DNA of 64,000 bases from Rhizobium sp. NFR03 (GTDB lineage Bacteria > Pseudomonadota > Alphaproteobacteria > Rhizobiales > Rhizobiaceae). A model generated the notes under the pieces. The model made no database searches. It was not told the origin of the DNA and was given only the letters and a program-made list of their open reading frames with translations. Below are positions 6,558 to 47,876 of the stretch, one piece after another (position 1 is the first letter of the stretch; every line of letters begins with the position of its first letter). The position numbers and the translations under genes are program-made. The stretch is taken from NCBI RefSeq assembly GCF_900111275.1, contig NZ_FOGR01000009.1, forward strand, positions 1 through 64,000. Reading direction: 5' to 3'.

Positions 6558-8978
6558 ATGAGGTTTCCCGGTCGCAAAGGTCTGTTCCTATCCATCGGTC
6601 TGCTTGCCCTTCCCCTCTCGTGGGACGGGCATGCGCTCGCGCAGAACCGCGTCGATCCGGCCTCGTTCGGATTTCCGGTGCCGGTTCCCGAGCCGGCGTT
6701 GCCGGAGGGGGTGGATCGTTTCGATCCTCCGTTCCGGACGGCGGACAAGACGGCGCCGGCCATAGCGGAGATGTCCAGCACCGCCGACCGTGGCGAGGTC
6801 GTTTCCATGACCGGCGTCGATCTCCATGGTGGGACGACGTTCGAGGTGTTTTCGCAGGCGCCGCGTGCAGGCGATGGCGTGACCGTAACGGTCGCGCCTC
6901 TGGCGGCCAATGCGACAGCGGCCACCCTCGCGCTGCCGGAGGAGCTGGCGGCATGGTCGATGTATCTGCTCTGGCCCAGGCGTGAAGGCGCGCAGGGCGC
7001 GCCGCTTGCCATTAACCGGACGGAAGCGTGGTGGGTCGGGCCTGAAAAAGGAGCGCCGGGTGAACGGATTTCGATCTACGGCCGAAACCTCGCCACGTCG
7101 AACGGGACCAAGGCTTCTCATGTCTACCTGAAACCTGCCGGCGGGCCGGGCCTCTATCTGAAGCCCGTTGCGGTCAATCCCTTCAAGGTCGATGTGGATA
7201 TTCCCGATCTGCCGGCGGGCACATACGACATCTGGATGCACAACGGCCATGGTGGCCGGTTCGGCTGGAGCGGGCCGCTGAAGCTCGATGTCGTCGCACG
7301 CTCGCGCTGGGCGATGCAGGAGGAGACGGTCGTGGATGTCGCGCGCTTCGGGGCGACGGCAGACGGTGTGACGGACGATACGGGCGCGATCATGCGCGCC
7401 TTGCAGGCAGCCGGGGCCGCGGCACCCGCGACATTATCCTTTGCGGCCGGCACCTATCTCGTTTCGGAGACGCTGGTCGCACCCGACGACGTGACATGGC
7501 TCGGCGCGGGAATGGACAGGACGGAGATCCGGCTTCGGACCCCGCTTGCAACGGCGATGATTGCGAGCACCGGACGCGATGCGCAGTTCCGGCATCTCAC
7601 CTTCAATGCGGATGGCAGGATTGGACGGAGCCCGCTTCTCGTCCTCGGCTCGGCGCGCAATATCCGGCTGGATCATGTCCGGCTTGATGCCTGGGGTGCC
7701 GCCGCACTCGATGCGCAGGATGCGGACGGCCTTGTGATCCAGTCATCGGAACTGATCGAAGACGGATCGTTCTACGGAAACAGTCGGCAGGTGTTCCTGT
7801 CCGATAACCGCTTCAGAATGACGGGCGACGGCGAGTCCGTCGTTGCTCTGTGGGGCGGGCACGATTTTTCCATGACCGGAAACACGCTGACGAATGCGGA
7901 TGAAAGCCGGGAGGACGGACACGGTATCGGCCGCTTCTTTGTTGCCCAGACCCATCGCGGCAGCATGCGAAACCTCTATTGGGGCGGAAACGTCTCGCGC
8001 AATGCCGGGCCGCGGGATTGCGAGAAGGTCGATTGCAACAAGGGCGAACAGATCTGCTTCGAGATATATGGCAGCCGGTTGATGACAACTGACCTCGTCG
8101 GCGCATCCGGCGCGGAGATCACGTTCCGGTCTCTCGCCGACATGCCGGAAGAGGTTCCCGGCGGCCGGGATCTGGTGATCGTCGGTGGCCGTGGCGCCGG
8201 CCAGCATCGGCACATCGTTTCAGGGTCCGGATCGACGGTGCGCCTCGAAAAACCGTGGACCGTGATGCCGGACGCAACGAGCCGGTTTGCCCTTGCGGCC
8301 ATCGCCTCGCGCGCCGCCATCTATGACAACAGCTTCGAGGGCCGCGCGAGCTACAGCGCTCACGATTCGGATACGACAGGCGTGCTTCTCTATGGCAGCG
8401 TCTACGATGTGGTGGTGGACAGCAACCGCATCTCCCGCATGCGCCACGGCATGATGACGGTCGCACTGGATTCTACTCTCGGCCTCAGTCCCTATTTTCT
8501 GCAATATTCCAATAACCTCGTGGTGGACAGCAACAGCGGCCTCTATGTCGGCACGACGTTTGCCGCCGACGGCGTGGCGGGTGTCTGGGGCGGGCTCGGC
8601 AATGTCTATCGCAAGAACCGGTTCGAGCGGATCGCCTATATCGGGATCGAATACGAAACCTGGGATCACGACGGATCGGATTTTGCCGGCACGGTCTTCG
8701 ACCGGAACAGCTTTTCCGACGTGCGCTTCGGCCTTGTGGACGGCTACAAGCTGATGTGGACTCATGACGGCCAGTTCAAGGCGGCACCCGGACACCGCCC
8801 CAAGCGGATCGACACCGTGCTCTATCACAACAGGTTCGAGCGAGGCACCCCCCGCTCTGACGGGAGCCGTGGTTTCGTGACGATGCATCCCGACAACAGC
8901 TGGGTGAACGTCGGCTCGACATGGGATGGTTTCGAAACCGGCAATACCGGCCCAGCTTCCTTGATTCCCGGCAAATAG
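6558..8978 (+). CDS. secreted right-handed beta-helix protein (pectate-lyase-3-like)
   Basis: This is an 806-residue protein. An N-terminal signal peptide (about residues 1-29, ending at an ALAQ site) sends it across the inner membrane. Residues about 60-240 look like immunoglobulin/IPT-type beta domains; from about 258 the sequence DVARFGATADGVTDDT is the hallmark of pectate_lyase_3/tailspike-type beta-helices, followed by repeated turns with Asn-rich steps (for example DSNRISRM, YSNNLVVDSN). Such folds are found in polysaccharide lyases, hydrolases and C5-epimerases. As it follows gmd-fcl by 29 bp, it most likely trims, epimerises or binds the EPS in the periplasm or outside the cell. No specific catalytic residues could be assigned. 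Confidence 0.75.
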   Translation: MRFPGRKGLFLSIGLLALPLSWDGHALAQNRVDPASFGFPVPVPEPALPEGVDRFDPPFRTADKTAPAIAEMSSTADRGEVVSMTGVDLHGGTTFEVFSQAPRAGDGVTVTVAPLAANATAATLALPEELAAWSMYLLWPRREGAQGAPLAINRTEAWWVGPEKGAPGERISIYGRNLATSNGTKASHVYLKPAGGPGLYLKPVAVNPFKVDVDIPDLPAGTYDIWMHNGHGGRFGWSGPLKLDVVARSRWAMQEETVVDVARFGATADGVTDDTGAIMRALQAAGAAAPATLSFAAGTYLVSETLVAPDDVTWLGAGMDRTEIRLRTPLATAMIASTGRDAQFRHLTFNADGRIGRSPLLVLGSARNIRLDHVRLDAWGAAALDAQDADGLVIQSSELIEDGSFYGNSRQVFLSDNRFRMTGDGESVVALWGGHDFSMTGNTLTNADESREDGHGIGRFFVAQTHRGSMRNLYWGGNVSRNAGPRDCEKVDCNKGEQICFEIYGSRLMTTDLVGASGAEITFRSLADMPEEVPGGRDLVIVGGRGAGQHRHIVSGSGSTVRLEKPWTVMPDATSRFALAAIASRAAIYDNSFEGRASYSAHDSDTTGVLLYGSVYDVVVDSNRISRMRHGMMTVALDSTLGLSPYFLQYSNNLVVDSNSGLYVGTTFAADGVAGVWGGLGNVYRKNRFERIAYIGIEYETWDHDGSDFAGTVFDRNSFSDVRFGLVDGYKLMWTHDGQFKAAPGHRPKRIDTVLYHNRFERGTPRSDGSRGFVTMHPDNSWVNVGSTWDGFETGNTGPASLIPGK

Positions 8979-8989
8979 GGCCGAAAACG

Positions 8990-10243
8990 TTAGCGAAGCG
9001 CCTGACGTGTGGGTGAAGATGCGGTGCGCTCGCCGGGACGGCGGGGAACGAGGTTGACGCGGACGACATCGCCGGACTGCAACGTCTCGTGCTCGTCGAT
9101 CACGCTTTCGCGGTAGTCTCCATCGACGATGCGAACAAGGGTATATTCGGTATCGATGGTATTCTCCATGGCGCTGACACGCTTGGCGGCGAGTCCGATC
9201 TCGGCCATGGTCTGGCCGCTGAACGCCATTTTCTGCCGGAGGCGCAGCATGTCCAGCCGGATGTCGCGGATTTCGGTTGCGGCGGTGTTGTGGCGGTTGC
9301 TGGAAAGCTCCTGAAGCCGTCTCTCAACCTCGTTTCTGTTCTGCCGGGCGCGCGCGAGAAACGAGCCGAACTCCAGAAGCTGCTGGTTCATCGCCAGAAG
9401 GTCGCGCTTTCTTTCACGCAGGGCCGCCTGGGTCGCCGCGCCTTTCGCCACAAGCGCCTGCGCCGCCTCCACATCCTGACGGATCAGTTCGAACTGCTCG
9501 TTTCGAAGCTCGCCGGTCTTCGTCAGCGTCTCGATTTCTTCGGCATAGTTCTGTCGCTGGGTCTCCAGATTGACCTGCTCGTTTTTCAGCGCCTCCAGTC
9601 GAAGATTATAGATGCTGGTTTCGGCATTGACGATCTGCTGGACGGACGACGGGTCGCGGCCGGAAACGCTGCCGGCCTTCGCATCGAACGGCGTTTCGTT
9701 CAGTTCCGCCTCCAGCCGCGCCTGCCTGATCTCCATCCCGAGCATCTGGAGCGCCATGTCCTCGTATTCCTGCTGCGCCGCGATGAGTTGCACGCCCGAC
9801 ATATCCGTCCGCGTGGCGGCGTCCCGAAGGCCGCCTCCGAGCGCAAAAAGCTCGAGTGCGATCATTCCGGGCCGGAACTCGTATTTTCCGGGCTTCTGGA
9901 TCTCTCCGACGATGAAGACAGGGGCATATTCCTTGACGGTAACGGCAACCGAAAGGTTGGGCACATGCACCGCAAGCGCCGTGCCGATGGTGTCGCCGAT
10001 CTCGGCCGTGGTCTTGTCGGCCACATCGACGCTGCCGAGGATGGGATAGCCGATCGTGCCTTCCGCACCGACCGGGAAAACGCCGGTCAGACCGGTGTCG
10101 CCATAGACCCAGATCATCAGCACGTCGCCGGCGGCCACGCGGTGCGCGGAGGGGCCTTGCGCAAGGGCGGTGCCGTGCGGAAGTGCTGCCCCGAGCGCAA
10201 TGCCGATCTTCAACATCGATATAAAACCCGAACGCCTGTTCAT
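8990..10243 (-). CDS. ExoF/Wza-like polysaccharide export protein
   Basis: This 417-residue protein has a signal peptide (about 1-28, ...GTALAQ), a Poly_export domain (about 33-100, HRVAAGDVLMIWVYGD) and a following SLBB-like domain (VFIVGEIQKPGKYEF). A long charged coiled-coil region comes next (about 190-330). Size and order match rhizobial ExoF rather than enterobacterial Wza; no lipobox cysteine is present. It should sit in the periplasm/outer membrane and guide the polymer out together with ExoP. Its start overlaps the ExoP stop (ATGA), so the two are co-translated. Its stop lies 11 bp from that of the convergent beta-helix gene. Confidence 0.88.
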   Translation of the reverse strand: MNRRSGFISMLKIGIALGAALPHGTALAQGPSAHRVAAGDVLMIWVYGDTGLTGVFPVGAEGTIGYPILGSVDVADKTTAEIGDTIGTALAVHVPNLSVAVTVKEYAPVFIVGEIQKPGKYEFRPGMIALELFALGGGLRDAATRTDMSGVQLIAAQQEYEDMALQMLGMEIRQARLEAELNETPFDAKAGSVSGRDPSSVQQIVNAETSIYNLRLEALKNEQVNLETQRQNYAEEIETLTKTGELRNEQFELIRQDVEAAQALVAKGAATQAALRERKRDLLAMNQQLLEFGSFLARARQNRNEVERRLQELSSNRHNTAATEIRDIRLDMLRLRQKMAFSGQTMAEIGLAAKRVSAMENTIDTEYTLVRIVDGDYRESVIDEHETLQSGDVVRVNLVPRRPGERTASSPTRQALR

Positions 10244-12429
10244 CTCGCTTCCCCTGCCAATACCGTTGGACGTGGTGACGGTTTCAGCTGGCGGCTGCCG
10301 GCCGTGTCGACAATGACGGAGCTTGCCGTCTTGTCCCGTCCACGCTTGCGCCGGCGAACGCCGTTCACCACCATTCCGACCACCTGTTCGCCATTGGCGC
10401 GCAGCCGGGCGACGGCATTTTCCAAGTTCTTCCTGTCCGCGCGCTCCCGGTCGACCACGAACGCCACGGCATCCGCCATGCCGGCAAGCCGCATCAGGTC
10501 CAGCTCATAGGTGGCGGAGGGGCAATCGATCAGCACCAGATCGTAGCGATGTCGCATCTCGGCGATCAGGGCCGCGAAGCTGTCCGCCCCGAGAATGAAA
10601 TCGGGCGGCGTGGCCTGGCGTTCGGAGACGATCACATCGACCGGAGACAAGGGATCGTGGTGAATGACGTCGTCGAACGGCGTGGCGCCCTGCATGGCGC
10701 GTGCCAGATGGTAGGCGCTCTGGATGCCGAAGGCATCGCCGATGGAGGGGTCCCGCAGGTTGGCGTCGATCACCAGCACGTTCAGCCCGCTCGACGCAAG
10801 CGAACGCGCAAGGTTGGTGACGACGAAGGTCTTACCTTCGCCGTCCACGGAGGACGTGAAGGCGATGACCTGGCTCCGGCCGTTCGCCTTTGCCTGATTG
10901 AGCTGGATGGACGTCTGGATGTCGGCGACCGCGCAATGGAAGTCGGCGGCCGATCCGCTGAACATGCCGGGTCCGGCCTTGATCTCGCCGGTCCGCATGC
11001 GCGGCACGCGCCCGATCACGGCAAGGCCCGTCTGCTGCTGGAGCGTGCCGATGGAGCCGACGGACCTGCTGTTGACCCCCATCAGAAGTGCTGCGCCCGC
11101 GCCCGATATCGTGCCGAGCAGCAGCGCGCCGAGCGCCCACAGCATCCGGTCGGGGCTGGTGGGCTTCGTGCCAGGCATGGCTTGTGTGATGATCCTTGCC
11201 TCGGCGGTGGCGATACCGTCCTGTTCGATCATCTGCTTGTAGCGGGCAAGATAGGTCTCGTAGATCGAGCGGTTGGCGTTGGCCTCGCGCTCCAGCTGAC
11301 CGGCATGGACCGTTGCAATGCTGGCCGCCGACATGGCGCGCTGGACCTCCTGAAGGTTCGCGTAGACTTCGCGCTGCTGCTTCTGGTTGATGTCGATCTC
11401 GTTGCGAAGGCTTGAAACGATCTGCGAGACTTCCTCGCCGATCTGCGTCTTGAGGGACGCGAGCTGGGATTCGAGCTGCGGGCGCTGGGGGTTCATCCGG
11501 GCGCCGCTCTGGTTGATGTCGGCGATGACGCGGATGACGCGCGCCTCTTCGGCTCGCAGAAGCTGGATGGCGGGCGAGGACAGAACCTCGACCAGACCCA
11601 CACCTTCCCCGGTTCGCAGGACCTCGGTGGCCGTGGCCAGCCGCGCCCTGGTTCCTGCAAGGCGCGCCTGCAATGCCGTCAGTTCGGTGTTGAGGCCTGA
11701 CAGCTGCTGGGCCTGAAGGCTCGTGCCGCCGGTGTTGACCAGCCCTTCCTTCTCGCGGAATTCGGCGGCGCCGCGCTCGGATTGCTCCAGCTTCTTCTGG
11801 AGGCTGACCAGACGTTCGCCCAGCCATTCGCTCACGCGTCGGGTCGCCGTTGTCTGAAGGTCGATCTGGTAGTCGATGTAGGCTGCGGCAAACCCATTGG
11901 CGATGGTCGCGGCCAGAACCGGATCCGTTGCCGTGTAGGAAATATAGATCGTGTAGGAACGGCCGTCGTTTATCACGCGGACATTGTTCAGAATCTCGTC
12001 GATTGCTTTCCTGTACACGTCCGGATTGCCGCCGGCCACGATCCGGTCGTTCTTGCCGCCGGTGTCGATAGCGGACGGTCCGAGCCGCAGATTCGCATAG
12101 ACCCGCTCGGCCATCGACCGGGACCCGATGATATCGATTTCCGTGCGCAGGACCGGGCTTTCCTGTGGAAGCGGAGACATCACGGACTCGCTCGGAAGCG
12201 CCTGAAGCTTGCGGACGTCGAGGGCGACCACGGCCTCGGAATGATAGCGTTTGGGCGCGCGCGCAAAGCCGATGGCCGCGACCAAGGCGCTGAGGAGGAG
12301 GCAGGCCGTAAAAACGGCCCGGTGCTGCCAGATAAGTGTGACAAGACGGGACAGGCCCTCTTGCGCGGTCGATGTCTGCTCGGTTTTCCTGATCATGCTC
12401 TTCCCGCCGAAACCTGTGTTGCTGGACAT
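10240..12429 (-). CDS. ExoP/Wzc-like chain-length regulator with BY-kinase-type ATPase domain
   Basis: This 729-residue polysaccharide co-polymerase has a first membrane segment (about 35-53), a Wzz-type periplasmic domain with coiled coils (to about 420), a second membrane segment (about 430-455, LWALGALLLGTISGAGAALL) and a cytoplasmic P-loop domain. Walker A is SSVDGEGKTF (about 525-535), Walker A' VLVIDANLRDPS and Walker B YDLVLIDCPS (about 630). In the family the C-terminal Tyr cluster is autophosphorylated to cycle oligomer state; here the last 45 or so residues contain no Tyr. It lies 13 bp after a LuxR regulator gene and overlaps the ExoF gene. The start could also be Met12. Confidence 0.9.
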   Translation of the reverse strand: MSSNTGFGGKSMIRKTEQTSTAQEGLSRLVTLIWQHRAVFTACLLLSALVAAIGFARAPKRYHSEAVVALDVRKLQALPSESVMSPLPQESPVLRTEIDIIGSRSMAERVYANLRLGPSAIDTGGKNDRIVAGGNPDVYRKAIDEILNNVRVINDGRSYTIYISYTATDPVLAATIANGFAAAYIDYQIDLQTTATRRVSEWLGERLVSLQKKLEQSERGAAEFREKEGLVNTGGTSLQAQQLSGLNTELTALQARLAGTRARLATATEVLRTGEGVGLVEVLSSPAIQLLRAEEARVIRVIADINQSGARMNPQRPQLESQLASLKTQIGEEVSQIVSSLRNEIDINQKQQREVYANLQEVQRAMSAASIATVHAGQLEREANANRSIYETYLARYKQMIEQDGIATAEARIITQAMPGTKPTSPDRMLWALGALLLGTISGAGAALLMGVNSRSVGSIGTLQQQTGLAVIGRVPRMRTGEIKAGPGMFSGSAADFHCAVADIQTSIQLNQAKANGRSQVIAFTSSVDGEGKTFVVTNLARSLASSGLNVLVIDANLRDPSIGDAFGIQSAYHLARAMQGATPFDDVIHHDPLSPVDVIVSERQATPPDFILGADSFAALIAEMRHRYDLVLIDCPSATYELDLMRLAGMADAVAFVVDRERADRKNLENAVARLRANGEQVVGMVVNGVRRRKRGRDKTASSVIVDTAGSRQLKPSPRPTVLAGEAR

Positions 12430-12442: not shown

Positions 12443-13210
12443 TCATCTCTGGGTGGCCATGGAACCGATCTTGCAGGCGACCTCGGTCCTGTTGGTCGCG
12501 CCGAGCTTCTTCATGATGTTGCGGATGTGAACCTTGATCGTGCTCTCGCAGAGGTTCAGCTCATGCGCGATGTCCTTGTTCGCCTTGCCGCACCGGAGGG
12601 CTTCGGCCACGGCCGACTGGCGATCCGTGAATGCGAGCGCCGACAGGGATTTCTGCTCCGACAGACCAAGCAGATCCCGAACGCCGAGGAGGCTGCTGAC
12701 GGGGATGAAGCGCCCGCCGGCAATGGCAAGGCTGATGGCCTGAATGCAGACCTCGATGGAGACGCTGCTGGGGATATAGCCGCGGACGCCGAGCGCGATG
12801 ATGTCCAGAATGACGTTGATGTCCTGATTGTCGGACAGGATGACCACGGCGGCCGGGGACATGGCATTGACCAGCTCGGAGATCTCGGCCACGAGCTGCT
12901 GCGGCGCGATGGCCGCATTGCCCGCATTGAACAGCACCGCCGACGGCGCGCCGACCGTGCGGCTGGCCGCCCGCCATTCGCCAAGGCTGGAGAAGGTCAG
13001 TACCTTTCGGTCGATCCGGTGATATTCCAGACTATGGGAAAGGCATTCCCGTTCCAGCACCCGCTTGTCGATCAGCGCGACGTAGCCGGCATCGGTTTGC
13101 GGAGCGGCGTCGTGATCGCCGTCGTCAATACGGGCGAGAAGAGAAGGATCGAACTGCATCGAATTGATAGCAGGCATTGTAATGTGCGAACGGGCGATCT
13201 CGACACTCAT
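12443..13210 (-). CDS. LuxR-family regulator with degenerate receiver domain
   Basis: This is a 255-residue protein. The C-terminal part (about 190-250) is a LuxR/NarL helix-turn-helix (FTDRQSAVAEALRCGKANKD, then STIKVHIRNIMKKL). The N-terminal part is receiver-like (YVALIDKRVLERECL to GVRGYIPSSV), but the position of the phospho-acceptor Asp is Asn (PSAVLFNAGN) and the conserved Lys is replaced (GYIPSS). It is therefore unlikely to be a classical phosphorylated response regulator. It is 13 bp upstream of exoP on the same strand, so it is probably co-transcribed with the export genes and may control the EPS locus. It is a paralogue of the regulator at 20966-21706. Confidence 0.85.
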   Translation of the reverse strand: MSVEIARSHITMPAINSMQFDPSLLARIDDGDHDAAPQTDAGYVALIDKRVLERECLSHSLEYHRIDRKVLTFSSLGEWRAASRTVGAPSAVLFNAGNAAIAPQQLVAEISELVNAMSPAAVVILSDNQDINVILDIIALGVRGYIPSSVSIEVCIQAISLAIAGGRFIPVSSLLGVRDLLGLSEQKSLSALAFTDRQSAVAEALRCGKANKDIAHELNLCESTIKVHIRNIMKKLGATNRTEVACKIGSMATQR

Positions 13211-20819: not shown

Positions 20820-20965
20820 TCGCCGCGTCCTCTGGTTCACGATCCCGAAGATCGAGGATTGCCCCAGATGGAAGCGGCGTCATTCTGACAGTTCGTCAGC
20901 GCGACATGACCGAAAGGCTTAGAGACCGCCTGTAAACCAAGCGGCTGAGAGCCCGCGCACGCTCG

Positions 20966-21706
20966 TCAGGCGTCGAACATCGCGGATATCTTGAAGATGA
21001 TTTCCGTCCTGTTGCGGGCCTGAAGCTTCTTCATGATGTTGCGCACATGCACCTTCACGGTGCTTTCCCGAAGGTTCAGCTCGTAGGCGATGATCTTGTT
21101 CGGCTTGCCCTTGGTCAGGGCGTCGATGACATCCACCTCCCGGTCCGTAAAGATCTCAGCCCGCCTGCGCTCCCTGTTCTCGGCAACGACGAGCAGCTGG
21201 CGCAGATCGTCGAGGTTCTCGGCGGAGATGAAAACGCCGCCGGCAACAGCGAGCGATATCGCGCCGACACATACGGAAAGCCCTATCGCAGAGGAAATAT
21301 AGCCGCGAACGCCCAGTTCGAAAGCTTGCATGATCTGGCGAAGATCCCTGTTTTCGGCAAGGATGACGACGGGCAGGCCTGGATAATCCGCGACCAGCTG
21401 GCGGACATCGGAGACGAACGACGCCTCGCAGAAATTGCCGCGGCCGATGTTGATGAGGATTCCGGCATGGGTGGGGTCCGGCGCCTTGCGCCACATCGAG
21501 ATCGTCGAAAACAGCTCGACATTCATGTTAAGGCCGTGCGCGATAAGGCTCTGGGCGAGACATTCACGATCCAGCGCCCGATCGTCGATGATCGCCAGCC
21601 TGGAAACAGAAGCTTGCTGAAGCCCGGATGCTGCAATGTCACGCGGAACGACGCGGAACGGTTGTGCCTGCGATAGATGACCAATGGTTGAGACTGCTAC
21701 TGACAT
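20966..21706 (-). CDS. LuxR-family regulator with degenerate receiver domain (second copy)
   Basis: This 246-residue protein is a paralogue of the regulator at 12443-13210. The receiver-like domain keeps the fold (LAIIDDRALDRECLAQSL to LGVRGYISSAIG) but has Asn at the phospho-acceptor position (GILINIGRGN) and no conserved Lys after GYI. The C-terminal LuxR helix-turn-helix (about 185-245; FTDREVDVIDALTKGKPNK, then STVKVHVRNIMKKL) is intact. It is divergent from the hybrid histidine kinase across a 613-bp AT-rich region and lies 147 bp upstream of the aminotransferase gene, so it may be autoregulated and drive the sugar cassette. Confidence 0.85.
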   Translation of the reverse strand: MSVAVSTIGHLSQAQPFRVVPRDIAASGLQQASVSRLAIIDDRALDRECLAQSLIAHGLNMNVELFSTISMWRKAPDPTHAGILINIGRGNFCEASFVSDVRQLVADYPGLPVVILAENRDLRQIMQAFELGVRGYISSAIGLSVCVGAISLAVAGGVFISAENLDDLRQLLVVAENRERRRAEIFTDREVDVIDALTKGKPNKIIAYELNLRESTVKVHVRNIMKKLQARNRTEIIFKISAMFDA

Positions 21707-22046
21707 GTGTCCTCCGCGATCGTTTATGTGAATGGCTGAACCGATATCTTTTAAAACCCGTATTGAATGGAATGAGCATCATTTCATCCAGATGCTGATC
21801 GATGGATCTCTGATGCCCTACTGCTCCAAACGCCCTCTACCTCAAATAGTGGCAGGCCTATTTCGGTGGAAATTAATATGAAATGAATTATGTTAGTAAC
21901 GACACAATTATAACAAAATAAACCACGATAAAAGCATCGGAATATACCTATTATGTTATTTTACTGAATTTAGATATAAAGATTTGGTATGTGTAAATTT
22001 TTGAGATGGACAATTTTGAATCGTCGATTCTAAGGAGTTAGGTTTG

Positions 22047-22133
22047 ATGACTTGTGTACGATTCAGACACAACAACACGTGCAATAACTTCGCTGTTATA
22101 GTGGTATCCAGTGGGGGGTTCTTCTTTCGGTAA
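22047..22133 (+). CDS. possible 28-residue small ORF in AT-rich control region
   Basis: An ATG is preceded by AAGGAG at a proper distance and opens a 28-codon frame ending in TAA. The peptide has no recognisable family; it is rich in Asn, Phe and Val. It could be a leader peptide or chance. The only support is the ribosome-binding site and the position upstream of the kinase gene. Confidence 0.2.
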   Translation: MTCVRFRHNNTCNNFAVIVVSSGGFFFR

Positions 22134-22146
22134 TTCAGCAGTATTT

Positions 22147-22156
22147 CGCACGTGCG
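22147..22156. promoter_or_regulatory. 10-bp palindrome CGCACGTGCG, candidate operator
   Basis: This perfect 10-bp palindrome with a CACGTG core lies in otherwise AT-rich DNA, about 165 bp before the likely kinase start. A second CACGTG core occurs 71 bp upstream (22076-22081). Symmetric GC-rich islands in an AT-rich control region are typical of regulator sites, and a LuxR-type dimer is a candidate binder. This is inference from sequence shape only. Confidence 0.35.
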
Positions 22157-22319
22157 GTACGGAAACGTACAAATAATTTTCAGCATTGCAGTTTCTATCA
22201 CGTTATGGTTGCGTTTCGACTGGTCTATCTTTCGCTGGGGGGGTGAAAGTCAGTGCATTTGGTCCCTCGTCCCGGTCGTCGGTGTTAGCCGTCAACAACC
22301 GCTTAATCGAGAAACCCGT

Positions 22320-24767
22320 ATGGCAAAACGTCGCGCAAGAGTGCGGGGGATGGTGCCTTGGTCCGGCATTGGTCCCGGCCGCGATACTGTCTCCGGAAGC
22401 ACTTCCAACAGGAGGAAGAGCGACCCCGATCCGCGGCTGGCGCCGCCGAATGTGGGACTGCGCTTTCACGCGGACTGGTCGCCGGGACTGCGTAGCCTGC
22501 AAGACCGTATCGACGATATCAGCCGGTCGCTGGACCGCAGCGGAACGGGAGTGTCTGCCAAAAAGGGATTTCCCGCCCAAAGCCAGCGCGTAGCGGCGCT
22601 TCTGCTCGATGCCCTCGATCGGCAGCGCAACGCAATGACGACGCTTGAGGCCGTCATGACCTGTTCCGGTGTCGCGACGCTTCTGCTGGATACAGCCTGT
22701 CGGGTCCGTTTTTTCACCGCCGCCGCCGCTTCGTTCCTGAGGATCGCTCCGGGCGATATCGGCCAGCCGGTCGCCAGCATCGTCGAATTGACAAGCGCCC
22801 ACCCCCTCCATGCCGATGCTGCGAAAGTTGTTTCGACCGGCGAGACGGTCGTTCGTGAGATGGCGCTGTCCGAGACAGTCTGGTGCGTGCGCAGGGTTGC
22901 CTTGTGCGAAACGCTGCATGGCGAAAACGAAGGCGTCGTCGTCACCTTCACCGATATCAGTGAACAGAAAGGGCGAGGCTTGAGCAGCGACGGTGCCCGC
23001 GCCGTGGCAGAGGCCGAGAATGCATGGAAATCACAGGGACTTGCAGCCGCCAGCCATGACCTGCGTCGCCCCGTGCAGGCCTTGCGATTGCTGCATGGCC
23101 TGCTGGAGAGGAACCACCCGGACGATGCGTCGAGCTGGCTGCTTCGACGCATGAAAGATACGCTCTGTACGATATCGAGTATTCTCGATACCGTGTTCGA
23201 TGTGGATGGAATCCTGACCGGTGACCTGCCGCCGGACCTGGAGCAGTTCCCGGTTTCCGCCGTTCTGCAACGGCTGGAGCGAGAGTTTTCCGAGATCGCG
23301 CAGGCTCGGAAGCTGGAGCTTCGCATCGTCCCGTCCAGCCTGTTCGTCAAAACCGACCGCCGCATGATCGAGCAGATCCTGCGAAATCTCGTGTCCGCCG
23401 CTGTCAAATCTACCGCGGGTGGAAAAGTCCTTGTGGGATGCCGGCGGCGTGGCGGAGTGTTGCGGATCGAGGTCCGCGATGCCGGCGCCGGCATGCCGGA
23501 GGACGAGAACTGGCCCGCTGATGGAAACCGGCAAGACGAATGTCCGGGCCAGGATTCAAGTCTTGTCATCGTCAGGCGGCTCGCCGACCGTCTGGGATCG
23601 AACCTCGCTTTCCAGTCCGCTCCCGGCAAGGGCACCATTGTCTCCATCCATGTTCCCATGGTGGACATTCCGGCAACCGGCCCTCCCGAGACCATGGACC
23701 CTCTCCCCCGTCCGCATCGTTCCCCTGCAACGACCGCTCCGAAAGGTGGCTCCATTCTGGTGGTCGAGGAGGACGCAGATGTGCGCGAGCTTCTCAGCCT
23801 TGGACTGGCAGGGGCCGGCTACCGTGTCGCGACGGCAGTCGATGGCGTCGAGGCGCTTGGTCATATCGAAGAGAAAAGGTTTCTGCCCCACCTCGTCATC
23901 GCCGACAGCAACCTGACGCGCGGGATGGCCGGACGGGATGGCACGGATGTCATGGAGAAGATGCGGGCCCTGCTCGGCTACCACGTGCCGGCTCTCAGCC
24001 TGTCCGGCGAAATATCGGCCGACGGTGCGCATCGTCGGGTTTCGCAGCTGAAAAAGCCGGTCGGGCTGGATGAAATGCTGCGCCGCGTGGCCGACCTTCT
24101 GACCTACCCCGCAGCTTGCGAACAGTTGGACCATGGCGGAGAGCCGGGTTTTCCGGCAGAAGATTTGCCCCAGACGGTGGAAATCGTCAATGACGAGACG
24201 ACCGTTCGCGATACGCTGCGGGCCGGGCTCGAAGGTGCAGGTATGACCGTCGTCGCGCACACGAGCGGCGAAGACTATCTGGAATCCTACGATCCGTCCC
24301 GGACGGGCTGCGTCGTAATCGATATGGACCTGCCGGGGATGACGGGACTGGATGTCCTGCGTGCCCTGAAGGCCCGGAAGCACGGGTTTCCCGTCATCGT
24401 CATGACCGGCCGCAACGATATGTCCAGCGCTGTGGAAGCGATGAAGCTCGGTGCCGCCGATGTCATCGGGAAGCCCTTTTCGACCGATGTCTTTCGGCGC
24501 AGCCTGTGCGCCGCCCTGCGCAGCATACCGACCGGCGGCCAGAGCGATCATCGTCGCCAGAGCGCCCGTAGCCAGCTGGCGCTTCTGACGGCACGTCAGC
24601 GGCAGGTGCTCGATCTTGTCGTCAAAGGCTGCTCCAACAAGATCATCGCCGCCCGGCTCGGCCTCAGCCAGCGGACCGTCGAAAATCATCGCGCGCAGAT
24701 CATGACAAGGACGGGCGCGATCTCGCTGTCTGCCCTGATGCGCATCGTGGTTTCGGCGGAAGAATAA
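22320..24767 (+). CDS. hybrid histidine kinase with two receiver domains and FixJ-like LuxR output
   Basis: This is an 815-residue soluble protein. A PAS-like sensor lies at about 100-215 (ATLLLDTACRVRFFTAAAASF), with HisKA at about 235-300 (phospho-His near 245 in ASHDLRRPVQALR). HATPase follows at about 350-455 (N box LRNLVSAAV, G1 VRDAGAGMP). Receiver 1 is at about 478-595 (Asp near 528 in VIADSN; Lys in KKP) and receiver 2 at about 619-735 (Asp near 666 in VIDMDLPGM; Lys in GKPF). A LuxR helix-turn-helix covers about 757-815 (LTARQRQVLDLVVKGCSNK). It joins sensor, phosphorelay and DNA-binding output in one chain. The start is uncertain: ATG 22320 is used; an earlier ATG at 22152 would add AT-rich-coded residues without homology. 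Confidence 0.88.
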   Translation: MAKRRARVRGMVPWSGIGPGRDTVSGSTSNRRKSDPDPRLAPPNVGLRFHADWSPGLRSLQDRIDDISRSLDRSGTGVSAKKGFPAQSQRVAALLLDALDRQRNAMTTLEAVMTCSGVATLLLDTACRVRFFTAAAASFLRIAPGDIGQPVASIVELTSAHPLHADAAKVVSTGETVVREMALSETVWCVRRVALCETLHGENEGVVVTFTDISEQKGRGLSSDGARAVAEAENAWKSQGLAAASHDLRRPVQALRLLHGLLERNHPDDASSWLLRRMKDTLCTISSILDTVFDVDGILTGDLPPDLEQFPVSAVLQRLEREFSEIAQARKLELRIVPSSLFVKTDRRMIEQILRNLVSAAVKSTAGGKVLVGCRRRGGVLRIEVRDAGAGMPEDENWPADGNRQDECPGQDSSLVIVRRLADRLGSNLAFQSAPGKGTIVSIHVPMVDIPATGPPETMDPLPRPHRSPATTAPKGGSILVVEEDADVRELLSLGLAGAGYRVATAVDGVEALGHIEEKRFLPHLVIADSNLTRGMAGRDGTDVMEKMRALLGYHVPALSLSGEISADGAHRRVSQLKKPVGLDEMLRRVADLLTYPAACEQLDHGGEPGFPAEDLPQTVEIVNDETTVRDTLRAGLEGAGMTVVAHTSGEDYLESYDPSRTGCVVIDMDLPGMTGLDVLRALKARKHGFPVIVMTGRNDMSSAVEAMKLGAADVIGKPFSTDVFRRSLCAALRSIPTGGQSDHRRQSARSQLALLTARQRQVLDLVVKGCSNKIIAARLGLSQRTVENHRAQIMTRTGAISLSALMRIVVSAEE

Positions 24768-24901
24768 CCTCGCCGCTCGCGCCGGCAGCCGGTACTCCTA
24801 AAGACTTATATCGCCGTTTTTCACCATCCAAAGCTGCGATAGGATTTGCCGCCGCGCCTTGTAGACTCAGCCCCGATCATGGATCGAACGGGGGATCTCG
24901 C

Positions 24902-26725
24902 ATGTGCGGACTGGTTGGAATTGTCAGTGGAAAGCCTGTTGCCGGCCGGTTGGTGGATGCGCTCCGGCGGCTGGATTACCGGGGATACGATTCCGCCGGC
25001 ATCGCGACCATCGAAGGCGACAGGATGGAGCGTCGCCGGGCGCCGGGCAAGCTCTTCAACCTCGAGCAGCGTCTGGATGCCGACCCGATCGGAGGCGCGA
25101 TCGGCATGGGACATACGAGATGGGCGACACATGGCATTCCCAACGAAACGAACGCCCACCCGCATTTCGTCGGAGACGTTTGCGTCGTTCATAACGGCAT
25201 TATCGAGAACTTCGCCGAGCTTCGGCAGGAACTGGCCGAAGACGGCGCGCTGTTCGAGACCCAGACCGACACCGAGATCCTCGCGCATCTGATGGCCCGC
25301 TACACTGCGGAGGGACACAAGCCCGTCGCCGCCATGCTCGAAATGCTGCGGCGGCTGCGCGGCGCCTATGCGTTCGCGATCATGCTGAGATCGCATCCCG
25401 GCATGATGATGGCGGCACGGTGCGGCCCGCCTCTCGCCATCGGTCACGGCGATGGCGAGATGTTCTTCGGCTCGGACGCCATTGCTCTTGCCCCCTTCAC
25501 GGACGAGGTGACCTATCTCGCCAACGGCGATTGCGCCGTCATTACTCGCACTGACGTAACGCTTTTCGATTTCTACGGCCTGCCAGTCCAACGCACCCGG
25601 CAGATGACGCAGACATCCAGCTACCTCGTAGACAAGGGCAACCACAGACATTTCATGGAGAAGGAAATCGCCGAGCAGCCCGAGGCCATCTCGCATGTGC
25701 TGGCCCGCTACGTCGATTTCACGTCGAAAAGCGTCAAGGCCTGCAACGCTATCGATTTTTCGGGAACGGACAGCCTTCACATCGCGGCCTGCGGAACGGC
25801 CTATCTCGCGGGCTGCATCGGTAAATCCTATCTGGAACGTTATGCCGAAATCGCGGTGGAGGTCGATGTCGCATCCGAGTTCCGGTATCGCACCCTGCCC
25901 TTCTCGAAGCGGCAGGCCGCCCTGTTCGTCTCGCAATCCGGCGAGACCGCCGACACGCTGGCCGCATTGCATATTTGCCGGAACAACGGCGTGGTCACCG
26001 GCGCCATCGTCAATGTCGAGGGCTCGACGATTGCGCGCGAGTCCGATGCGGTGTTTCCCATTCTCGCAGGACCGGAAATCGGCGTTGCCTCCACCAAAGC
26101 CTTCACCTGCCAGCTGGCCGTGTTCGCCTGCCTTGCCATTGCCGCCGGGCGACGCCGGGGGACGATCGATAGCGCGCAGGAGCAGGCGCTCGTCGGGCAT
26201 CTCATCGAAGTCCCGAGGATCATGAGCGACGTGATTGCGAGGATTCAGCCGCAGATCGAGGATCTGGCGGCCCGTCTCGCCCGTGTCCGGCATGTCATCT
26301 ATATGGGGCGCGGCACCAGCTATCCTCTCGCCATGGAAGGCGCGCTCAAGCTCAAGGAAATCGCCTATATCCATGCAGAAGGTTATGCGGCCGGCGAGCT
26401 GAAGCATGGGCCTATCGCGCTCATCGACGACAGCATGCCCGTGATCGTCATCGCGCCCTATGACCGTTTCTTCGAAAAGACCGTCTCCAACATGCAGGAG
26501 GTCGCCGCGCGCGGCGGGCGGATCATCCTGATCACGGATGAGAAAGGGGCTGCAAAGTCCAGTCTCGCGACCATTGCCAGGATCGTCCTGCCCCATGTCG
26601 ACGACATCATCTCCCCGCTGATCTTTGCGTTGCCGCTTCAGATGCTGGCCTATCACACGGCCGTGATCATGGGGACAGATGTGGACCAGCCACGCAACCT
26701 GGCAAAATCCGTCACGGTGGAATAG
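24902..26725 (+). CDS. glmS: glutamine--fructose-6-phosphate aminotransferase (isomerising)
   Basis: The 607-residue protein matches the usual length of GlmS (about 608). Cys2 (MCGLVGIV) is the N-terminal glutaminase nucleophile; RLDYRGYDSAG, GHTRWATHG and HNGIIENF are class II amidotransferase blocks. Two SIS domains follow, with ACGTAY and SQSGET in the first and the isomerase motif EGALKLKEIAYIHAEGY in the second. It makes glucosamine-6-phosphate for UDP-GlcNAc. A second, chromosomal glmS is expected in the organism, so this copy probably boosts precursor for the WecA-initiated EPS. It has its own 134-bp upstream gap with GGGGGA before the ATG, and is followed by a strong terminator hairpin. 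Confidence 0.97.
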   Translation: MCGLVGIVSGKPVAGRLVDALRRLDYRGYDSAGIATIEGDRMERRRAPGKLFNLEQRLDADPIGGAIGMGHTRWATHGIPNETNAHPHFVGDVCVVHNGIIENFAELRQELAEDGALFETQTDTEILAHLMARYTAEGHKPVAAMLEMLRRLRGAYAFAIMLRSHPGMMMAARCGPPLAIGHGDGEMFFGSDAIALAPFTDEVTYLANGDCAVITRTDVTLFDFYGLPVQRTRQMTQTSSYLVDKGNHRHFMEKEIAEQPEAISHVLARYVDFTSKSVKACNAIDFSGTDSLHIAACGTAYLAGCIGKSYLERYAEIAVEVDVASEFRYRTLPFSKRQAALFVSQSGETADTLAALHICRNNGVVTGAIVNVEGSTIARESDAVFPILAGPEIGVASTKAFTCQLAVFACLAIAAGRRRGTIDSAQEQALVGHLIEVPRIMSDVIARIQPQIEDLAARLARVRHVIYMGRGTSYPLAMEGALKLKEIAYIHAEGYAAGELKHGPIALIDDSMPVIVIAPYDRFFEKTVSNMQEVAARGGRIILITDEKGAAKSSLATIARIVLPHVDDIISPLIFALPLQMLAYHTAVIMGTDVDQPRNLAKSVTVE

Positions 26726-26745
26726 GCGCCGTTCGTTTCACGAGG

Positions 26746-26781
26746 CCGGCGCCCGGCGACCAGGGCGCCGGACAGCCTTTT
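26746..26781 (+). terminator. rho-independent terminator after glmS
   Basis: A perfect 9-bp stem (26746-26754 with 26763-26771, CCGGCGCCC/GGGCGCCGG) has an 8-base loop and is followed six bases later by TTTT. It lies between the convergent glmS and glycosyltransferase genes. The short T run makes it most useful for glmS; the minus-strand direction lacks a T run, so bidirectional action is uncertain. Confidence 0.75.
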
Positions 26782-27772
26782 ACGACAGGCGACGGTTCTG
26801 CTTCTTCGGGCCTGCCAAAAAGACCCGGTACAAGCGGCCCCATCTGTCGGGGCGGCTTAGGAGGTAGTCGATGGGCGGCAGCACGACGGAGATCGGCGAG
26901 ATACGGAACGCCAGCCGGAAGAAATCCCGTGCTTTCCGGTTGCGCTGCAGCAGGTTCGCGATACCGCACCAGTAGGCGCGATTGGCGATGCCCTGCAAGG
27001 CGAGCCGCCGCATGGACCGGCTGCCCCGCAGACCGCTGCCCTCGTGAGCGAAGAAGGATTCGACAGCTGCCGCGGTATGCACGATGTGCTGCATCTGGTC
27101 GGCTGCGATCTCCTTCGACCGGTTGGCGTCATGTGAGCGGATGCCGGCCTGGATGCAATCGAGTTCCGCCACGGGACCGTACATCGCCAGCCGCAGCCAC
27201 ATTTCGTAATCGTCTGTATGCGGCAAGGCCTCGCGATAGTGGCCGGCCTGCTTCTGCGCGCTGGTCCTGACGATGACGGTCGGGCTTGAGATCCGGAAAA
27301 CTCCCATCCGGCAGAAACGCTTGATGAAGGCCCTTCCGCTGATCAGGCGGTGGGGCGGCATATCGGGTTGCCGCGCGATCCGGGGCACGGGCATCCGATC
27401 CCGTATGGCGAGATCCCGGCCGTGACAGAACGAGATCGAGGGATTCATCTCCATCACGGTCAGCGCGCGCCTGAGGGCGCGGGGAACGAGAACATCGTCC
27501 GCGCACAACATGAGGAAGCAGTCCGCCTCGGCCCAGTCGATCCCTTCGTTGAAGGAGGCATGCGGGCCGATATTGCGGGGCCGCAGGATGATTTGCACAC
27601 GGTCGTCCTCGCTGGCAAGCGCCCTTGCAATATCGGCGCTGTCGTCGGTCGAGGCATTGTCGATGATCAGCACGCGAACCGTGACGTCTTCCTGATCCAG
27701 CACGCTTTCCACGCAGGACCTGAGATACCGGCCATAATTATAGTTGGGGACGACGACATCGATGCTGGACAT
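26780..27772 (-). CDS. glycosyltransferase family 2
   Basis: This 330-residue inverting GT-A enzyme begins IDVVVPNYNYGRYLRSCVES, the classic GT2 N-terminus, followed by LIIDNASTDDS (nucleotide binding) and LCADDVLVP (metal-binding DxD region, about 90-98). The acceptor region has DDYEMWLRLA. No membrane segment is present, so it works on the cytosolic face and adds one sugar to the lipid-linked repeat. It starts three bases after the stop of the Wzx flippase gene, so the two are co-transcribed. Donor sugar cannot be predicted. Confidence 0.9.
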   Translation of the reverse strand: MSSIDVVVPNYNYGRYLRSCVESVLDQEDVTVRVLIIDNASTDDSADIARALASEDDRVQIILRPRNIGPHASFNEGIDWAEADCFLMLCADDVLVPRALRRALTVMEMNPSISFCHGRDLAIRDRMPVPRIARQPDMPPHRLISGRAFIKRFCRMGVFRISSPTVIVRTSAQKQAGHYREALPHTDDYEMWLRLAMYGPVAELDCIQAGIRSHDANRSKEIAADQMQHIVHTAAAVESFFAHEGSGLRGSRSMRRLALQGIANRAYWCGIANLLQRNRKARDFFRLAFRISPISVVLPPIDYLLSRPDRWGRLYRVFLAGPKKQNRRLS

Positions 27773-42840: not shown

Positions 42841-43863
42841 TCAGGTACGTATTCCCGTGCGTTCACGAGAGGGATCGAAGGCGACTTCAGCGACTTTGAA
42901 GCGCCCGCCGACGCGCTTGCACTGAACCACGATATCGACCAGCTCCGTCAGAAGGCCTCGAATGTCGGCGCGCGCGAGATCGCGCCCACCTTCGGACTCC
43001 TTCACCAGAAGCGTTAGCTGTTCGAACGCGAGCCGAGCGGAGTCCGCATGGACGGTGGTGATCGAGCCGGGATGGCCAGAGTTCACGTTGCGAATGTAGT
43101 AGAATGCCGTGCCGTCGCGCAGTTCCTGCAGGAGGATGCGGTCCGGTCGCATGCGCAGGCAGGACTCCAGCAGGTCCTTCGGCCCGACCTTCGACAGCCC
43201 CTGCCCGCCCTTGGAGTAGAACAGCCGGACGTGGTTGGGCTGGGGCACGACAAGCTCCGGCGTGTCCTCAATGGTGATGATCCGCTCGGAAGTCGGGATG
43301 TGCTGGATCAGGGCCTTCGACAGCGTCGTCTTGCCGGAGCCGGTCGCCCCGGAGATGATGATGTTCTTGCGCGCCAGCACGGCCTTTTCGAGGAAGGCGG
43401 CGATCCGGCCTGATTGGTGAAGATCGCGGAGTTCCGCGTCGTCTCTGGCGATCTCGGAGGTCATGGGCGCGACGTCAGAGAACAGACCGGCATCGTCGAG
43501 CTCGCTGAGGCTGAGGGAGACCGAAGAAGGTTTTCTGAGCGTGAGACTGACGGTCCCCTTGGTCACCGCCGGCGGGATGACGATCTGGATGCGCTCCTCG
43601 TCCAGAAGGGTGGCAGACAGAAGCGGATGCGCCTCATCGATGGCCTGGTGGGAGTGGCTGGCCACCGCCCGCGCAAGCCGCATCAGCCTGTCGAAGGTGA
43701 GCTCCGGCACCTCGTGGCGCGTCCACCCTCCGGCGCCCTCGGTCAGAACCTCGCCCGGCCGGTTGACGACGATCTCGTAGAGCGACGGATCGTTCAGGAA
43801 CGCGGACAGCGGCGCGAGCAGCTGTCGGACGACGCCGACGTCGGAAGCGGCGCCACCGGTCAC
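42841..43863 (-). CDS. virB11: VirB11 type IV secretion ATPase
   Basis: This is a 340-residue hexameric traffic ATPase. An N-terminal domain (FLNDPSLYEIVVNRPGEVL) precedes the ATPase core: Walker A GATGSGKTTLSKAL (about 168-181), Asp box ITIEDTPELV, Walker B RILLQELRDGTAFY and His box GHPGSITTVHAD. It powers pilus assembly and substrate transfer at the inner membrane. The start is a GTG at 43863 that overlaps the VirB10 stop (GTGA); an upstream in-frame ATG lies inside virB10 and gives no homology. It is the last gene of the operon. Confidence 0.95.
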   Translation of the reverse strand: MTGGAASDVGVVRQLLAPLSAFLNDPSLYEIVVNRPGEVLTEGAGGWTRHEVPELTFDRLMRLARAVASHSHQAIDEAHPLLSATLLDEERIQIVIPPAVTKGTVSLTLRKPSSVSLSLSELDDAGLFSDVAPMTSEIARDDAELRDLHQSGRIAAFLEKAVLARKNIIISGATGSGKTTLSKALIQHIPTSERIITIEDTPELVVPQPNHVRLFYSKGGQGLSKVGPKDLLESCLRMRPDRILLQELRDGTAFYYIRNVNSGHPGSITTVHADSARLAFEQLTLLVKESEGGRDLARADIRGLLTELVDIVVQCKRVGGRFKVAEVAFDPSRERTGIRT

Positions 43864-45044
43864 TTGGTCACGAGGTCGGAATGACGGCTGAAGTCGCCCG
43901 AGACCGCGCGGTCGTAGATCGTGTTGCGCGGTTCGATGACGCGAAGGCGGTAGATACCGGAGAAGTCGAGATCGCGGGCGACGAAGATCGAGACAAGTGA
44001 TCCCTGGTGCTTGTTCAGCGTCGGCGGGATGTTGATCGACTGCTCGACGGCGATGCCCGCGGCATCCTTGCCCGCGCTCGTTGTCCCTTCCATGTCGATA
44101 TCCTGGTCCTGCAGCTGCTGCGACAGAACGGATGTGGCGTCCCCGACGATCGACAGAAGGAGCGCGCTGCCAAACCGCTCCCACCAGTGGGTATCGACAT
44201 GACCGTCAAAGCCGGCGCGGCCGAGCGGATCGGTAGCCGGCGAGGCGAGTGTGACGATGACGCCGGTCGGGGTCTTCGCCCGGTTCCACAGGACGAACAG
44301 CCGGTTCTGACCACGGCGCAGGCCGCCGCGATACTCGCCGACGATCTGGGTGCCTTTCTCCATCAGCACGACGCGACCGTTGTCGGAAAGAATGTCGCGG
44401 TTGGTAACGCAGCTGACGAAGCCGGGCTGGTCGGAGGCCATGGCCGTCTCGAGCACGCAGGGGATCGAAGTGCCCATGGCGACGATGAAGTTGCGGTTGC
44501 CGAGGTGGCCGGCGCGCGAGCCCTCCAGCTGCGTCGGCGTCAGCATGCGGTTGAAGCGCTGGTCCTCGTTCTCGCCTCGCGCCTCGCCGCCGAAGCCCGC
44601 AGCTGGAAACGGCTGGAAGGCACTGTCTGCGCTTCCGTCGGCGTCCGTCGGCGCCGCATCCCGTCTAGACGAACTGCCCGCACTGCCTCCGCCGAAGGCC
44701 ATGACTGGAGCGCGGCGTGCCGAGTCCAGCAGTTCGTCGGTGACGGGGGCGGACTGCGGTTCCTCCATCGGCGTCGGTAGCGGAACGGGTAGCGCGGCCG
44801 GAGTAACCGGCGCCGGTTCCGGCTTTGCCGGTTCGAAGTCGCGGGTCTGGCGCTGGACGACCCGCTCGGGCGGCGCCTCGTCGGTCTTCGGAGCGCCTGG
44901 GCGCATCGACCACGCCGCAAAGCCCATGAAGGCGACAACGGCGAGAACCACGAGCCCTCGTTTCGCCAACTTGTTCTCGGCCGGGCGTGCGGTCGGCGTC
45001 TCCGCGCGCTCGCCGTTGATCGTGGTTTCGGTCTGTTCAGCCAT
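43860..45044 (-). CDS. virB10: VirB10 (TrbI-type) core complex protein
   Basis: The 394-residue protein has a short cytosolic tail, one membrane helix (about 30-47, LVVLAVVAFMGFAAWS), a Pro-rich periplasmic linker (PAKPEPAPVTPAALPVP-like) and the C-terminal beta-barrel domain with GNRNFIVAMGTSIPCVLETA and LMEKGTQIVGEY. It spans both membranes and links ATPase energy to the outer-membrane pore with VirB7 and VirB9. Its 3' end overlaps virB11 and it lies 18 bp after virB9. Confidence 0.95.
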   Translation of the reverse strand: MAEQTETTINGERAETPTARPAENKLAKRGLVVLAVVAFMGFAAWSMRPGAPKTDEAPPERVVQRQTRDFEPAKPEPAPVTPAALPVPLPTPMEEPQSAPVTDELLDSARRAPVMAFGGGSAGSSSRRDAAPTDADGSADSAFQPFPAAGFGGEARGENEDQRFNRMLTPTQLEGSRAGHLGNRNFIVAMGTSIPCVLETAMASDQPGFVSCVTNRDILSDNGRVVLMEKGTQIVGEYRGGLRRGQNRLFVLWNRAKTPTGVIVTLASPATDPLGRAGFDGHVDTHWWERFGSALLLSIVGDATSVLSQQLQDQDIDMEGTTSAGKDAAGIAVEQSINIPPTLNKHQGSLVSIFVARDLDFSGIYRLRVIEPRNTIYDRAVSGDFSRHSDLVTK

Positions 45045-45062
45045 GGTTGTCCCTCCCCTTCC

Positions 45063-45923
45063 CTATCGCCGTGCCGCTGACGGCAGGGCGACAACCCGCT
45101 CGACCGAAGGCGACGTCGTGTTGGTTCCGGGGTTGATGCCGGTCGGCGACCAGGCCTCGTTGAAGATGCAGAGTATATCGCCGCCGCGACGCAGGATGAA
45201 CTTTTGGCTGACGGCGTGGACGAGCACGAGATCGCCGGTCACGGATTTCGGCACGAGCGTCTCTACGCCGTCGCTGTTCTCGATGTAGATCGCCGGCATC
45301 TCCTGGTTTCCGGAGAAGGCGAAGGTGGTGATCTTGCCGTTATCGTAGACCGCCTGCGGCTCGATCGCGACGGAGCCCTGCGCGGCATAGCGCCAGTTGC
45401 GCGGCCCGTACTGCTCGTGGATCCCGAGCACAGCGTCCGCCTTGCCGGCTTTCGCGGCCTCCGCACGCGCGGCTGACGCCAGCCGCTTTTGCGCAGCCTC
45501 GTCGGCGGGATAGCGGTATTTGACGTAGAAGTAGGTGTTCTGCCCGGCTTCGACCGAGCCCTCCCGGACCATCAGCTCCATCTGGTAGCTGCGCTTGGAG
45601 CCGTCACGGCGCGTCGTGACGACGGATATGTTGGTGACCGGTTGGTTCTCGCGCGGTTTGAGGAAGAGGATGTTGCCGGCGGGGGCGACCTCCCAGGCCA
45701 CCGTGTTGCCGAGCGCCACATGGGCGATCTCCTCGTCGGGGGAGAACTCGACCTGCACGGACGAGCGCAGCGAGCCGACGATGCGGGTGATGTCGTAGGG
45801 CTGGTAGTTGACAAAGCGCACGCGGCTGTCGCCGTCGGCGCCGCGGGGAACTTCAAGGGCATGCGCCGGTCCTGCTAGGAGGACGGCTGCAAGCGCCGCG
45901 ATGATGATCGGTTTTTGCCTCAT
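45063..45923 (-). CDS. virB9: VirB9 outer-membrane core protein
   Basis: The 286-residue protein has a signal peptide (about 1-22, ...GPAHA) and the CagX/VirB9 fold: [40 protein letters not shown]-like block, YQMELMVR and C-terminal [19 protein letters not shown]. It binds the VirB7 lipoprotein and VirB10 to form the core channel. Start ATG 45923 overlaps the virB8 stop (ATGA); upstream codons lie within virB8. Confidence 0.93.
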
Positions 45924-46591: not shown

Positions 46592-46595
46592 CGCC

Positions 46596-47874: not shown

Positions 47875-47876
47875 CG

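Follow-up and report, generated by a model that had tools for sequence, protein, structure and literature searches.

The 64,000-nt stretch of Rhizobium sp. NFR03 analyzed in this study (hereafter, the window) belongs to a 173,565-bp contig (C9) and contains repA, repB and repC (54077-57976) as well as trb-type conjugation genes (42841-51204). Judged by this gene content, the EPS cluster of the window rides on a repABC plasmid, which is probably conjugative. The left part of the cluster comprises genes for an export protein, wzc, luxR2, PIG-L, a nucleotidyltransferase, a SAM methyltransferase, rfbC, DUF4910, an SDR and an aminotransferase; then come luxR1 (20966-21706, minus strand), the divergent gene of a hybrid regulator (22320-24767, plus strand), a glycosyltransferase and a flippase. 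A second glmS (24902-26725), located between the hybrid and the glycosyltransferase, is 67% identical to glmS on contig C15 of the same genome; no glmS was found in the related loci (12 stretches compared), and the best 10 of 481 plasmid records with DNA matches to 20900-26800 match over glmS only. The plasmid of the hybrid also carries a gene for a methyl-accepting chemotaxis protein with HAMP (62202-63890).

The hybrid, as we refer to the product of 22320-24767 (plus strand), is translated from a single frame of 815 aa with zero internal stops, and its open frame, Pfam matches and relatives together lead us to read it as a kinase-dead regulator. Above Pfam cut-offs it contains PAS_10 (aa 111-213, 22650-22958; PF13596, E 2.4e-14), a degenerate HATPase_c (aa 346-447, 23355-23660; PF02518, E 5.6e-15), two Response_reg stretches and a LuxR-type HTH (GerE, aa 755-809, 24582-24746; PF00196, E 2e-14), all encoded on the plus strand, as is a HisKA domain (aa 238-294, 23031-23201; PF00512) that retains His246 at 23055-23057 and scores below cut-off (23.5 vs. 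26.9 bits). By Pfam and alignment, the receivers are REC1 (aa ~476-595, 23745-24104, plus strand), with Asp529 retained at 23904-23906, and the FixJ-like REC2 (aa ~617-735, 24168-24524, plus strand), with Asp668 retained at 24321-24323. REC2 and HTH together resemble FixJ, scoring 191.9 bits against NCBIfam PRK09390 (cut-off 255) and matching the FixJ structure 5xso at E 4.8e-38. The sequence-only reading had described one protein of the order PAS-HisKA-HATPase-REC-REC-HTH with both receiver Asp residues kept; Pfam confirmed its coordinates and domain order, HisKA being sub-cut-off, and both Asp residues are indeed in place. The cytosolic location suggested by that reading is also probable: the maximum 19-residue Kyte-Doolittle mean is only 1.46, and hydropathy revealed no membrane-helix-like stretch.

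Alternative gene models were considered and set aside. A frameshift or an assembly join of two separate genes, raised by the sequence-only reading as a way in which it could fail, is contradicted by six family relatives, each of which aligns with the hybrid without a change of frame, beginning at residue 79-94 and ending at residue 811-815. An upstream GTG start at 22152, the frame of which is open too, is unlikely on composition: GC3 is 0.52 in the stretch that begins there and 0.69-0.78 in the gene. Translation therefore more probably starts at the ATG at 22320, and the ribosome-binding site before this ATG is weak at most.

The divergent partner, luxR1, encodes a LuxR-type regulator with a pseudo-receiver (GerE E 6.5e-19; Response_reg below cut-off), which agrees with the earlier description of the pair, and by our reading of the alignment its acceptor Asp is absent, as it is in the aligned orthologs. 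By the same reading, Asn, Ser or Tyr takes the place of the acceptor Asp in both luxR1 (20966-21706) and the related luxR2-type gene (12443-13210), aligned orthologs included (16 rows, one of which, G081 luxR2, duplicates G081 luxR1); phosphate-free receivers thus seem to be the rule at this locus. The 613-bp intergenic region of the pair (21707-22319, 41% GC) is a likely control region. When the corresponding intergenic stretches of six loci were searched for a common operator, no 10-mer was present in at least four of them including the window, and only one AT-rich 9-mer emerged.

The same cluster is found in N. petrolearium, A. pusense, G194 and G1125 and, in the part viewed, in Rhizobium sp. 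Y9. In a record named Roseateles sp. XES5 (L130, NZ_CP084754) the cluster is the same with its right side changed, a CheB-type hybrid standing beside luxR1, and G081 is similar. G108 keeps the divergent pair in a different gene order, and G1066 keeps the pair and luxR2, the only other match to window genes within 20 kb being a 27% match to the export protein. By position, nine of the ten plasmid records with luxR1 (E 1e-60) have a divergent hybrid adjoining it; in the tenth, Shinella sp. HZN7 (L132, NZ_CP015739 107639-109623), luxR1 is followed after 308 bp by a GDP-fucose synthase gene, so that no hybrid fits between the two, at the place occupied by the CheB-type hybrid in the XES5 record. 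In G098, luxR1 and glycosyltransferases are present, and no hybrid was found within 20 kb. Proteins of the luxR1 kind, present in 72/247 family genomes at E 1e-25, are far commoner than the hybrid. From these comparisons, the divergent pair is a conserved feature of close locus copies, most luxR1-like genes being without such a hybrid. As to the compact local circuit for EPS that had been suggested for this pair, the location in an EPS cluster and the divergent arrangement hold, and the regulation of EPS by the hybrid is something that we infer from position alone.

Searches of other genomes place the hybrid in a broad family. At E 1e-60, matches were detected in 0/6 other genomes of the genus and 6/296 other genomes of the family (10/393 in a larger overlapping draw), and at 1e-80 in 16/384 other genomes from the class and 20/396 from the order; 27 of 72,556 plasmid records matched at 1e-40. 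Core identity of the hybrid to any match is at most 44%. More than half of the open frames from the family, class and order searches (29/44) exceed 1,400 aa, and 13 of the best 20 of the 27 matching plasmid records carry a CheB or CheR annotation, members of the CheB-CheR family being annotated as "chemotaxis protein CheB" or "CheR family methyltransferase". A Pfam scan of 14 relative frames detected CheB and CheR ahead of the core in L022, L086, L121, L129 and L025, which are also the five longest members scanned, and CheB without CheR in L128 (N. petrolearium, WP_227705865.1). The remaining eight frames, including L021 (G194) and L122 (G1125), have neither domain in-frame, and some of these absences may be contig or frame effects. 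The PAS_10 domain of the hybrid is, by Pfam, of the kind that stands after CheR in CheB-CheR relatives, at the equivalent place. The hybrid itself contains no CheB or CheR domain detectable by Pfam, and a search of the window for leftovers of CheB-CheR gave nothing convincing, the best match (E 0.11) lying over the PAS region; elsewhere in the genome CheB is found in three places, in open frames on contigs C20 (669 aa), C29 (363 aa) and C14 (438 aa). A search of genome contigs for close homologs of the hybrid returned three loci (L012-L014), the best at ~40% except for a 57-residue HTH match at 58%.

Since a homologous core, from PAS to HTH, is common to the hybrid and this family, the domain comparison identifies the hybrid as a shortened representative of a CheB-CheR-PAS-kinase-REC-REC-LuxR family that is widespread among the Alphaproteobacteria. 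Its architecture is the core of that fusion family and, therefore, no new combination. The proteins of A. pusense pAt1 (WP_262622975.1) and N. petrolearium (WP_227705865.1) share with it the PAS-HTH core, the EPS locus and a divergent orthologous LuxR gene, whereas the hybrid is without CheB-CheR, has a degenerate ATP site and is only 43-44% identical to both. Among curated families, NahK/ErcS (NF041832) is its best NCBIfam match, with the best stretch at aa 232-581 and an H box of SHDLRRPVQAL, but the score of 206.1 bits is well short of the curated cut-off of 400. NahK is not known to have a LuxR output. In the open PMC papers among the matches listed, we found no description of CheB-CheR-PAS-kinase-REC-REC-LuxR fusions or of a kinase-dead one-chain version.

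The feature that sets the hybrid apart is its ATP site. For GHKL kinases, the N-box Asn, the lid and the G2 glycines matter for ATP binding in phosphotransfer. We aligned the core of the hybrid with 44 relatives and then with 49, the latter table comprising 44 of the 46 places from the family, class and order searches (two of G883 left out), three of the four new places of the larger family draw (G1098, a 451-aa fragment, omitted) and two of the 27 plasmid records. The N box (aa 356-365, 23385-23414, plus strand), mostly NL.SNA.KYT in the relatives, is NLVSAAVKST in the hybrid, with Ala360 where 49/49 relatives have Asn and Ser364 where 49/49 have Tyr. In the adjoining stretch of F box, ATP lid and G2 box (aa 395-418, 23502-23573, plus strand) seven residues are gone, and the F-box region (IF.EY.Q or near in relatives) falls inside this gap; G2 is GQDSSLVIV vs. 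GLGLGLSIV or near, positions 412-414 being G, L, G in 49/49 relatives and D-S-S in the hybrid. The G1 box is intact (D387, G389, G391). Outside the table, L064 and L066 (the two omitted G883 places) and L131 keep the N box and G2 (Rhizobium sp. Y9, L131, was checked separately and has an intact ATP site), and G2 is intact in the fragment L108 (G1098). L012-L014 stand outside the alignment; the motif patterns of the ATP site went unmatched in the fragment L012, and L013 gave no match at all. A degenerate ATP site has been seen in one sequence only. A sequencing error or frameshift as the source of this damage was considered and rejected: the remaining two frames over the lid give no motif, and the changes are scattered over the N box, lid and G2.

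Because the N-box Asn, lid residues and G2 glycines are lost, self-phosphorylation by the hybrid is unlikely, and these losses would leave it very probably without autokinase activity; weak ATP binding is possible, as HATPase_c is still recognized by Pfam and G1 is intact. The hybrid is therefore probably unable to start a phosphorelay by itself, and the designation of a one-chain phosphorelay in the sequence-only reading, which mentioned neither the ATP-site damage nor the unusual receiver residues described below, does not survive the comparison with 49/49 aligned relatives that keep all three elements. A self-contained relay, in which an unusual working ATP domain would pass phosphate from ATP to His246 and on to D529 or D668, would agree with the complete domain order, the kept His and Asp residues and the intact G1, but in view of the same three losses we consider it very improbable.

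The acceptor residues tell a different part of the story. His246 of the hybrid is His in 49/49 aligned relatives, D529 is Asp in 49/49 and D668 in 48/49; both receiver Lys residues are present in the hybrid and in 49/49 relatives, and the full set of receiver Asp, Thr/Ser and Lys is present in both of its receivers. REC1 has Ser where 43/49 relatives have Thr. The acidic pair of REC1 is Glu-Glu, the second place being Asp in 47/49 relatives, and that of REC2 is Asn-Asp, the first place being Asp in 48/49. These positions are Glu484 and Asn624, which by CheY numbering stand at the D13 place of REC1 and the D12 place of REC2, respectively. With the acidic pocket unusual at one residue in both receivers, phosphate may go unused in the hybrid. 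Overall, the hybrid is a cautionary case, in which retained His and Asp residues are not proof of a working phosphorelay.

We have further compared how losses are distributed over the domains, calling a column near-invariant if 95% or more of the 49 rows other than the hybrid share one residue (leave-one-out). The hybrid departs at 10/31 such columns in HATPase, where any other row departs at no more than two, at 5/19 in HisKA, at 5/18 in PAS (L084 has more, 8/19), at 2/10 in REC1 and 2/18 in REC2 (L101 has more in both, 3/10 and 10/22), and at 0/18 in HTH. The excess in HATPase is supported against HTH (Fisher p 0.008) and against receivers plus HTH (p 0.014), and is not significant against all other domains together (p 0.12). 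When the 50 rows are ranked by their mean identity to all others, the hybrid comes last in HisKA, HATPase and HTH and last but one in PAS and REC2. As we read these counts, there is drift throughout the hybrid, the ATP site is minus key residues, and the HTH is altered only where others vary.

In a quick tree, the hybrid groups with L128, L121, L021, L122 and L129 (SH-aLRT 99). Its terminal branch measures 1.99 changes per column (median 0.46), and that of L101_3 is nearly as long (1.86); with so long a branch, placement of the hybrid leans on synteny as much as on this tree. Identity between the window and N. petrolearium is 43.9% for the hybrid gene, vs. 63.9% between A. pusense and N. petrolearium. 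For its neighbors, the same two comparisons yield 69.3/72.0% (luxR1), 70.5/72.2% (luxR2), 78.7/81.0% (GSAM), 76.0/83.8% (SDR), 74.8/75.8% (SAM methyltransferase), 81.1/85.9% (nucleotidyltransferase), 69.0/72.6% (DUF4910) and 57.8/67.5% (wzc), so that wzc and SDR show some excess divergence in the window, smaller than that of the hybrid. By these pairwise values, the acceleration in the window lineage is mainly of the hybrid gene.

Such an acceleration would be expected under early decay, the main rival to the reading that we favor: the EPS cluster would no longer need this sensor, and the frame would be open by chance or after a recent loss of selection. Besides the fast evolution mainly of the hybrid (43.9 vs. 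63.9%), decay could account for an HTH whose overall identity is also the lowest of 50 rows and for the absence of a hybrid beside luxR1 in Shinella sp. HZN7 and G098. It is less easily reconciled with about two changes per column having introduced neither a stop nor a frameshift (2.4% of single-base changes in the hybrid gene create a stop), with the coding composition kept in this open frame (GC3 0.69-0.78), with the 0/18 near-invariant HTH columns lost or with the kept acceptor residues, and we regard it as rather unlikely. We lean, with modest confidence, toward the hybrid being a kinase-dead, His-retaining DNA-binding regulator that would be phosphorylated by another protein or work phosphate-free, and that is possibly on its way to loss.

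In the mechanism that we propose for such a kinase-dead regulator, the ancestor would have been of the CheB-CheR-PAS-kinase-REC-REC-LuxR type, and the hybrid has lost both CheB-CheR and the ATP-holding residues. Phosphate, if used, would come to one of its receivers from another kinase or a small phospho-donor, and His246 would at most pass it between receivers or remove it; REC2 would then control how the HTH binds DNA at promoters of EPS genes, with the 613-bp region between the divergent genes as a possible site. A conformational effect of the PAS domain on the protein may persist, and in an alternative mode the hybrid would act via its unphosphorylated shape only. Our judgment is evenly divided on whether the hybrid would still be a phosphate-dependent regulator. 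The most specific version, an ATP-free His-Asp relay node in one chain (foreign kinase to REC1, His246, REC2 and HTH), we consider distinctly unlikely. If true, it would turn the cluster's own sensor into an input port for another signaling pathway, and the relay node would represent one stage in the gradual dismantling of sensor-regulators of the CheB-CheR type at an EPS locus that is mobile.

Phosphate might also reach the hybrid in trans, if it formed mixed dimers with a second kinase of the NahK/ErcS-like kind in the same cell. His246 is intact, and the genome encodes kinases that align with the HisKA-HATPase-REC1 part, namely C20:524449-525471 (34% over aa 224-568 of the hybrid), C14:442453 (35%) and C12:15506 (30%), in which a pattern search detected the N box, G1 and G2 (C20) or the H box and G2 (C14, C12). 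However, these candidates are only 30-35% identical to the hybrid, the H-box pattern is unmatched in the C20 kinase and the N-box pattern is unmatched in C14 and C12, making dimers of this kind highly doubtful.

Several known systems resemble parts of the favored reading of a kinase-dead regulator. According to one paper (PMC5964349), Caulobacter PhyK with G1 or G2 mutated is phosphorylated through MrrA, phosphorylates PhyR and complements in vivo, in the role of a phosphotransfer protein, and Sphingomonas PhyP has a degenerate CA domain. The likeness to the hybrid consists in a histidine-kinase shape with an ATP site that is dispensable (PhyK) or degenerate (PhyP), whereas PhyK hands phosphate to a separate PhyR and the hybrid has receivers and HTH in its own chain. 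By sequence, the hybrid would be compatible with a PhyK-like His-retaining phosphotransfer pseudokinase, which would accept phosphate from a phosphorylated receiver with no need to bind ATP. A title cited in PMC2688746 presents EnvZ N347D as kinase-minus/phosphatase-plus with reverse phosphotransfer, and in PMC3868531 the D663A form of CheA3 charges REC1 of CheS3, i.e., a hybrid receiver is fed by another kinase. With regard to architecture, the hybrid combines a sensor kinase, receivers and a DNA-binding domain in one polysaccharide-linked chain, and it has no strongly hydrophobic stretch; its output is of the LuxR/FixJ kind and its ATP site is damaged. The output of Bacteroides HTCS is of the AraC type. 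In PMC11253607, HTCS are one-chain two-component regulators linked to polysaccharide genes, and so are like the hybrid in domain content and linkage and unlike it in having a membrane sensor.

Placed side by side, the loci of the window and of other Rhizobiaceae display a hybrid with CheB-CheR (A. pusense), without CheR (N. petrolearium), without both (G194, G1125) and without CheB-CheR and the ATP site (window), as well as no hybrid adjoining luxR1 (Shinella sp. HZN7, G098). These differences are states, and the order of events among them is unproven. Nature here provides a test of whether the core of a histidine kinase can persist, once its kinase activity is gone, in the role of a transcription factor that accepts phosphate. 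Damage of the reverse kind is observed in L101 (G878:C24, frame 7352-11140), in which the ATP site is intact and REC2 is degenerate (10/22 columns lost).
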